Translations under genes and position numbers: made by a program | Shown here: positions 26,513 through 27,497 of the stretch, one piece after another | How the letters are laid out: every line of letters begins with the position of its first letter | Numbering within the stretch: the stretch's first letter is position 1 | Notes under the pieces: generated by a model | Told to the model about the DNA's origin: nothing | The model's database searches: none | What the model saw: only the letters and a program-made list of their open reading frames with translations | NCBI GenBank assembly: GCA_014874295.1 | Contig: JACWAL010000022.1 | Location: forward strand, 1-44,011 | Length of the DNA stretch: 44,011 nucleotides | Source of the DNA: Microcaldota archaeon | Lineage (GTDB): Archaea > Micrarchaeota > Micrarchaeia > Micrarchaeales > Micrarchaeaceae | Reading direction: 5' to 3'

Positions 26513-26716
26513 ATGATGATACCGGTACGTTGTTTCAGTTGCGGCGCTGTCGTGGCCGATAAGTGGGAGGAGTATGACAGGAGGGTCAACAAGGACCACG
26601 AAGACGCGGGCAAGGTGCTCGATGAGATGGGAGTGAAGCGCTACTGCTGCAGACGCATGCTCATCAGCAACCTCGATCTCATAGAGGAATTCATAAGCAT
26701 AGGCAACAAGGCGTGA
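26513..26716 (+). CDS. rpoN: DNA-directed RNA polymerase subunit N (Rpo10)
   Basis: A 67-residue zinc protein with [12 protein letters not shown] at the start and [19 protein letters not shown] later; the CxxC and CC pairs bind zinc as in Rpb10. It belongs to the polymerase assembly platform with RpoD and RpoL. Two adjacent ATG codons (26513, 26516) both give acceptable starts. It is four bases after the S9 stop. Confidence 0.93.
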
Positions 26717-26759: not shown

Positions 26760-26846
26760 GGGGCCGTGTGCTAACCTGGCATGCTTCTGCCTTGGGGTGG
26801 CAGCGATCCGAGTTCAAAAGCGAATCTGAAAATCTCGGCGGCCCCA
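26760..26846 (+). tRNA. tRNA-Pro (anticodon GGG) with a T-loop insertion
   Basis: Acceptor arms GGGGCCG/CGGCCCC pair over 7 bp. The anticodon stem CTGCC/GGCAG encloses TTGGGGT, anticodon GGG. The T stem CCGAG/CTCGG is perfect, but the loop between its arms is 21 nt instead of 7. Removing 14 nt restores TTCAAAT, the normal T-loop. Total 87 nt against about 73 expected. This looks like an intron in the T-loop, although I could not draw a canonical bulge-helix-bulge around it. Located between rpoN and the S2 gene on the same strand. Confidence 0.9.
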
Positions 26847-26870: not shown

Positions 26871-27497
26871 ATGGAAGAGCAGGAACAACAGCAGCAACAG
26901 ATGCTGGTCAACCAGAATGAGTACCTTGAGGAGGGCATCCACATCGCCACGAAGGCCAAGGCCCAGGGGATGGAGAGGTTCGTCTACAAGGTCAGGGAGG
27001 ACGGCCTGTTCCTCCTGGACATAGCCTCGATAGACGAGCGCATCAAGATCGCGGCGAGGATGCTCGCAAGGTACGACCCGTCCAAGGTGGTCGTGACGGC
27101 GTCGAGGACGTACGCCATATACGCCGCGGAGAAGTTCGCGGCGCTGATAAGCGCGAGGTTCATAAAGGGGAGGGTTGAACCTGGCATATTCACCAACCCG
27201 AACAGACAGGAGTTCATGGAGCCAGAGCTCATATTCATAAGCGATTCGAGGAACGAGAAGCAGGCAGTAAACGAGGCGAGCAAGACGAGCATAACCGTCA
27301 TGGCGCTGAGCGACACCGACAACTCGACCAAGTTCGTAGACTTTATAATACCCGTCAACAACCGCGGAAGAAGGTCACTGGCCTTTGTTTATTACCTGTT
27401 GAGCAGGGAAGTGCTGAAGGAAAGGGGGGCCATCAAGTCGAACGAGGAGTTCCAGTACAAGGTCGACGACTTTGAAGCGAAGCTCGAGACGAAGTGA
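26871..27497 (+). CDS. rps2: Ribosomal protein S2 (uS2)
   Basis: The 208-residue product contains NEYLEEGIHIATKAKAQGMERFVYKVREDG, LDIASIDERIKIAARMLARYD, VVTASRTYAIYAAEKFA, RFIKGRVEPGIFTNP and FIIPVNNRGRRSLAFVYYLL, the archaeal S2 core. The N-terminus is unusually Gln-rich (MEEQEQQQQQM). It is 24 bases after tRNA-Pro and ends the plus-strand cluster; the next gene is on the other strand. Confidence 0.95.
   Translation: MEEQEQQQQQMLVNQNEYLEEGIHIATKAKAQGMERFVYKVREDGLFLLDIASIDERIKIAARMLARYDPSKVVVTASRTYAIYAAEKFAALISARFIKGRVEPGIFTNPNRQEFMEPELIFISDSRNEKQAVNEASKTSITVMALSDTDNSTKFVDFIIPVNNRGRRSLAFVYYLLSREVLKERGAIKSNEEFQYKVDDFEAKLETK

Follow-up and report, generated by a model that had tools for sequence, protein, structure and literature searches.

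The tRNA-Pro(GGG) gene described here lies between rpoN and rpsB on a stretch of 44,011 nt from a Microcaldota archaeon, an ultrasmall member of the Micrarchaeota (assembly GCA_014874295.1, contig JACWAL010000022.1); this whole stretch of DNA is referred to below as the window. The gene and its surroundings comprise the following features.

26513..26716, + strand: rpoN (RNA polymerase subunit N), upstream neighbour (Pfam PF01194, E 4.9e-29)
26760..26846, + strand: tRNA-Pro(GGG) gene with one predicted intron; the mature tRNA is 73 nt after removal of 14 nt (sequence and ARAGORN on the spliced form)
26794..26796, + strand: anticodon GGG, in the anticodon arm CTGCC-TTGGGGT-GGCAG (ARAGORN on the spliced form)
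26808..26812, + strand: 5' strand of the T-stem, CCGAG, outer helix of the splice motif (sequence, fold)
26834..26838, + strand: 3' strand of the T-stem, CTCGG (sequence)
26871..27497, + strand: rpsB (ribosomal protein S2), downstream neighbour and synteny anchor for relatives (Pfam PF00318)

The T-stem CCGAG/CTCGG closes a T-loop of 21 nt, and taking out 14 nt restores the loop TTCAAAT, as the sequence-only reading had noted; four registers of this removal serve equally. ARAGORN calls tRNA-Pro(ggg) only once the 14 nt are removed; the unspliced gene in the window is missed both by ARAGORN and by Rfam at the gathering threshold, and two tRNA-Leu genes are all the tRNAs that they call there. 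The earlier description of all stems as perfect holds for the acceptor stem (GGGGCCG/CGGCCCC), the anticodon stem and the T-stem. It fails for the D-stem: in the standard register, U10.U25 and U13.U22 lie on either side of its two Watson-Crick pairs (G11-C24 and C12-G23). The relatives share U10.U25, and this mismatch is therefore a trait of the lineage and no sign of decay. The invisibility of the gene to standard tRNA finders might suggest a pseudogene or an artefact of assembly, but either is exceedingly improbable: it is the sole tRNA-Pro(GGG) found, alongside Pro(TGG) and Pro(CGG) genes that are intact and intronless, and its place upstream of rpsB is conserved across many independent assemblies. 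A second, intact tRNA-Pro(GGG), which the sequence-only reading had allowed for, was not found in the assembly (824 kb, 94.5% complete).

The enlarged T-loop contains the elements of a splice motif.

26813..26816, + strand: TTCA (T-loop positions 54-57), 5' strand of the central 4-bp helix (MFE fold; register control across relatives)
26817..26819, + strand: 5' bulge AAA, with the predicted cut after its second base, 26818/26819 (EndA cutting rule; comparison with canonical bulge-helix-bulge motifs of relatives)
26819..26832, + strand: 14-nt predicted intron at 59/60, AGCGAATCTGAAAA (motif, relatives, in-silico splicing; an intronless relative reads TTCAAAT)
26827..26830, + strand: TGAA, 3' strand of the central 4-bp helix (fold, relatives)
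26831..26833, + strand: 3' bulge AAT, with the predicted cut after its second base, 26832/26833 (fold, relatives)

With the layout CCGAG-TTCA-AAA-GCGAATC-TGAA-AAT-CTCGG, the arm forms a central helix of four Watson-Crick pairs (TTCA/TGAA) with the 3-nt bulges AAA and AAT on either side. The apical 7-nt stretch GCGAATC is unpaired and the 5' bulge opens into the apical loop; the inner helix is absent, which makes the motif a relaxed bulge-helix-bulge (BHB) of the hBH/BHL kind and not a canonical one. When the T-arm is folded by itself the relaxed motif is its MFE structure, and the outer helix, central helix and 3' bulge also appear in the MFE fold of the whole pre-tRNA; the sequence-only reading, which could fold no canonical bulge-helix-bulge, had missed this splice motif. 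The fold is favoured over an open T-loop by 1.4 kcal/mol, and its z-score is modest (-1.4). When the insert is shuffled, the central helix still forms in the same register in about 2% of cases; the helix alone is thus not very improbable, and the weight falls on its conservation. Archaeal EndA cleaves a 3-nt bulge between its second and third bases. Applied to AAA and AAT, this rule would place the intron at 26819-26832, between positions 59 and 60, and join TTCAAA to T60, so that the splice motif picks one of the four possible removal registers.

Relatives were fetched with rpsB as an anchor, the nearest being Candidatus Micrarchaeota MAGs with S2 proteins 88-89% identical, and the tRNA-Pro itself was used as a query over 60 genomes, that of the window included. 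This gathered 35 distinct tRNA-Pro sequences, the window's own among them. An insert at 59/60 is present in 34 of the 35, and its removal gives TTCAAAT in every case; recurring in this way at the same place, the insert is not a product of chance. The remaining sequence (L056) is intronless, its T-loop being TTCAAAT as it stands. After splicing in silico all 35 sequences are recognised as tRNA-Pro, against two of 35 before it, one of these being the intronless L056. Of the 34 intron-bearing sequences, 33 form all four pairs of the central helix, and 135 of the 136 central-helix cells pair in the expected register; registers shifted by 1-4 nt pair in 1-53% of cells and yield at most one full helix. 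The 3' strand of the helix varies to TGAG in three sequences and to TGGA in two, with G.U pairs, and L079 is the sole exception to such pairing-compatible variation. Little true covariation is possible, since the 5' strand belongs to the near-invariant T-loop. In the arms of some relatives (L052, L068 and L049) the MFE fold does not choose the central helix, which is supported there by register and conservation. An inner helix, and hence a canonical BHB, occurs in L052, L053, L054 and L055, and the intron of L068 contains GC-TTCG-GC.

The same comparison bears on whether the 14 nt might be retained, the mature tRNA working with a T-loop of 21 nt. This alternative is very improbable. The insert ranges from 12 to 31 nt across the 34 sequences and drifts freely outside the splice motif, and L056 does without it altogether. 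The T-loop bases of a tRNA contact the D-loop, and an enlarged loop would disrupt this contact.

The enzymes expected of protein splicing are encoded in the genome, which was searched as 42 contigs totalling 824 kb. Its single EndA carries PF01974 twice in tandem and matches the EndA of ARMAN-2 (4FZ2) over its full length (E 7.6e-166, 63% identity); residues 17-405 align to 4FZ2 residues 1-387, as in a three-unit protomer (alphaN-alpha-betaC). The catalytic triad Y236/H251/K282 is conserved, as are Y160/K161 of the ARMAN-specific loop (ASL), R275 and W384. The sequence assigns this EndA to the epsilon type (epsilon2), the outcome expected when inspection of the endonuclease was proposed. An RtcB is also encoded (E 1.9e-168). 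The epsilon2 EndA of ARMAN reportedly cleaves BHL/hBH introns at various tRNA positions, a breadth ascribed to its specific loop (PMC4033280, PMC6379350, PMC12397907). Removal of the insert by self-splicing, through a group I or other ribozyme, or by some further route is hardly credible. Group I introns do occur in archaea (PMC6125680), but 14 nt is far too short for a ribozyme, an Rfam search of a 301-nt stretch at a permissive threshold gave nothing relevant, and both the EndA motif and the enzyme are present. The only match of that search, a sub-threshold one to CyVA-1, lies on the opposite strand, mirrors the stems of the tRNA itself and was rejected.

The insert in tRNA-Pro(GGG) thus combines the features of an archaeal protein-spliced intron—a central helix, two 3-nt bulges, a mature tRNA restored by its removal, and genes for EndA and RtcB—and departs from the strict canonical BHB in having no inner helix. 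We consider it almost certain that the 14 nt are an archaeal-type (protein-spliced) intron at position 59/60 of the T-loop, presented in a relaxed BHB, cut by EndA and joined by RtcB. From the gene, its fold, the motif conserved in relatives and the enzyme genes, we infer the cleavage, the ligation and the exact cut sites as follows. In the precursor, the T-stem would serve as the outer helix, and UUCA of T-loop positions 54-57 would form the central 4-bp helix with UGAA, which lies close to the intron's 3' end. The 3' cut would be held in the 3-nt bulge AAU, and the 5' bulge AAA would run into the 7-nt apical stretch with no inner helix. The epsilon2-type EndA, probably a broad-specificity homodimer with the ARMAN-specific loop, would then cut after the second base of both bulges, and RtcB would ligate the exons, whereupon the T-loop UUCAAAU could form. 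The suggestion of the sequence-only reading that an archaeal endonuclease of relaxed specificity removes a T-loop intron is in this way supported, and the other processing route that it considered is not required, a relaxed BHB and EndA being sufficient.

A second intron, at 53/54 and 12-21 nt long, is found in 14 of the 35 tRNA-Pro sequences, which therefore bear two T-arm introns (53/54 and 59/60: L048-L051, L060, L081, L082, L088-L093 and L097). The helix CCCG/CGGG of the 53/54 intron is complete in 13 of the 14 and has one G.A mismatch in the other, L051. Between the two introns lies the 6-nt exon TTCAAA. Since part of the 5' strand of the T-stem is paired with the first intron in these sequences, their splicing is probably ordered, with the 53/54 intron leaving first. 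tRNAscan-SE 2.0 already provides for closely spaced introns whose removal has to follow an order (PMC8450103). A broader and rather unlikely proposal is that the 59/60 intron, which both families examined carry, is an old feature of the order and kept by selection, for example for timing the folding or modification of the T-arm, and that in the two-intron relatives it can be spliced only once the 53/54 intron has gone, the two steps being obligatory and passing by way of the 6-nt exon.

Introns are widespread among the other tRNAs of the genome. Among the 41 tRNA genes found with Rfam and Pro(GGG) taken together, at least 16 contain one, 12 appearing canonical (37/38) and four lying elsewhere; positions were read by hand, and the four outside 37/38 (Pro, Arg, Leu and Val) were also checked by splicing in silico. 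Two of these four lie at 59/60, in Pro(GGG) and Arg(CCT); the intron of Leu(CAA) is at 58/59 and that of Val(TAC) (L040) at 29/30. The T-loop introns of tRNA-Arg(CCT) (L041), with a full BHB, and of tRNA-Leu(CAA) (L037), with a relaxed one, have the same kind of motif as that of Pro(GGG), and a T-loop insert in Leu(CAA) recurs in family f2 (L138). ARAGORN further calls a tRNA-Ile(TAT) in the genome of the window (L023) and in the single-contig f2 genome G039 (L103); tRNA-UAU is reported to be rare in archaea (PMC6000648).

The anticodon of the orthologous tRNA-Pro differs between sister families of the order. A GGG pattern matched in 64 of 85 genomes of family f1 and in none of 79 of family f2, and an AGG pattern in none of the 85 and in 58 of the 79, the two patterns differing in design and their misses not all being true absences. 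Orthologues with AGG (A34) in f2 include L050-L056, L059, L085 and L086, and the proline tRNAs found in G039 are TGG, CGG and AGG. A TadA-type deaminase (PF00383, PF14437) was unmatched in six of the seven f2 genomes tested with both profiles, five of these six matching the AGG pattern. Tangential as it is to the T-loop intron, a tRNA-Pro(AGG) in a family whose tested genomes mostly lack a match to such a deaminase is the more surprising observation, A34 tRNAs being reported as nearly absent from archaea (PMC6000648).

The occurrence of the same T-loop intron in close relatives in relaxed, canonical, doubled (with a second intron) and absent states amounts to a natural set of substrates for the epsilon2 endonuclease, which could be used to test how the bulge and helix requirements co-evolve with the specificity loop of the enzyme. 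The intron also explains why standard finders miss tRNA-Pro(GGG) in such genomes. T-loop introns with relaxed motifs, and the broad range of cleavage by epsilon2 EndA, are already described (PMC6379350, PMC4033280). Such an intron in this isotype and lineage was not found in the literature searched.

Several known systems are comparable. Thermofilum pendens and C. merolae have permuted tRNAs whose joint also falls at 59/60 in the T-loop (PMC3218864), whereas tRNA-Pro(GGG) has an ordinary cis intron and no permutation. Multiple-intron tRNAs of Thermoproteales and ARMAN-1/2 (Sugahara et al., as cited by PMC4033280) are matched by those relatives of tRNA-Pro(GGG) that have two introns, here in one T-arm; the relatives differ in the 6-nt exon TTCAAA between the introns and in the probable order of splicing. 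The epsilon2 EndA of Candidatus Micrarchaeum acidiphilum ARMAN-2 (PDB 4FZ2, 9W2K) has the same three-unit architecture over its full length, with the triad and the Tyr/Lys pair of the ASL kept, and the EndA of this genome departs from it by ordinary sequence divergence only. The closest parallel is with the relaxed BHB/BHL introns of archaeal tRNAs processed by broad-specificity EndA, which are alike in the 4-bp central helix, the 3-nt bulges, the T-loop position, the short intron and the accompanying genes for EndA and RtcB, and from which the intron of tRNA-Pro(GGG) shows no qualitative difference.
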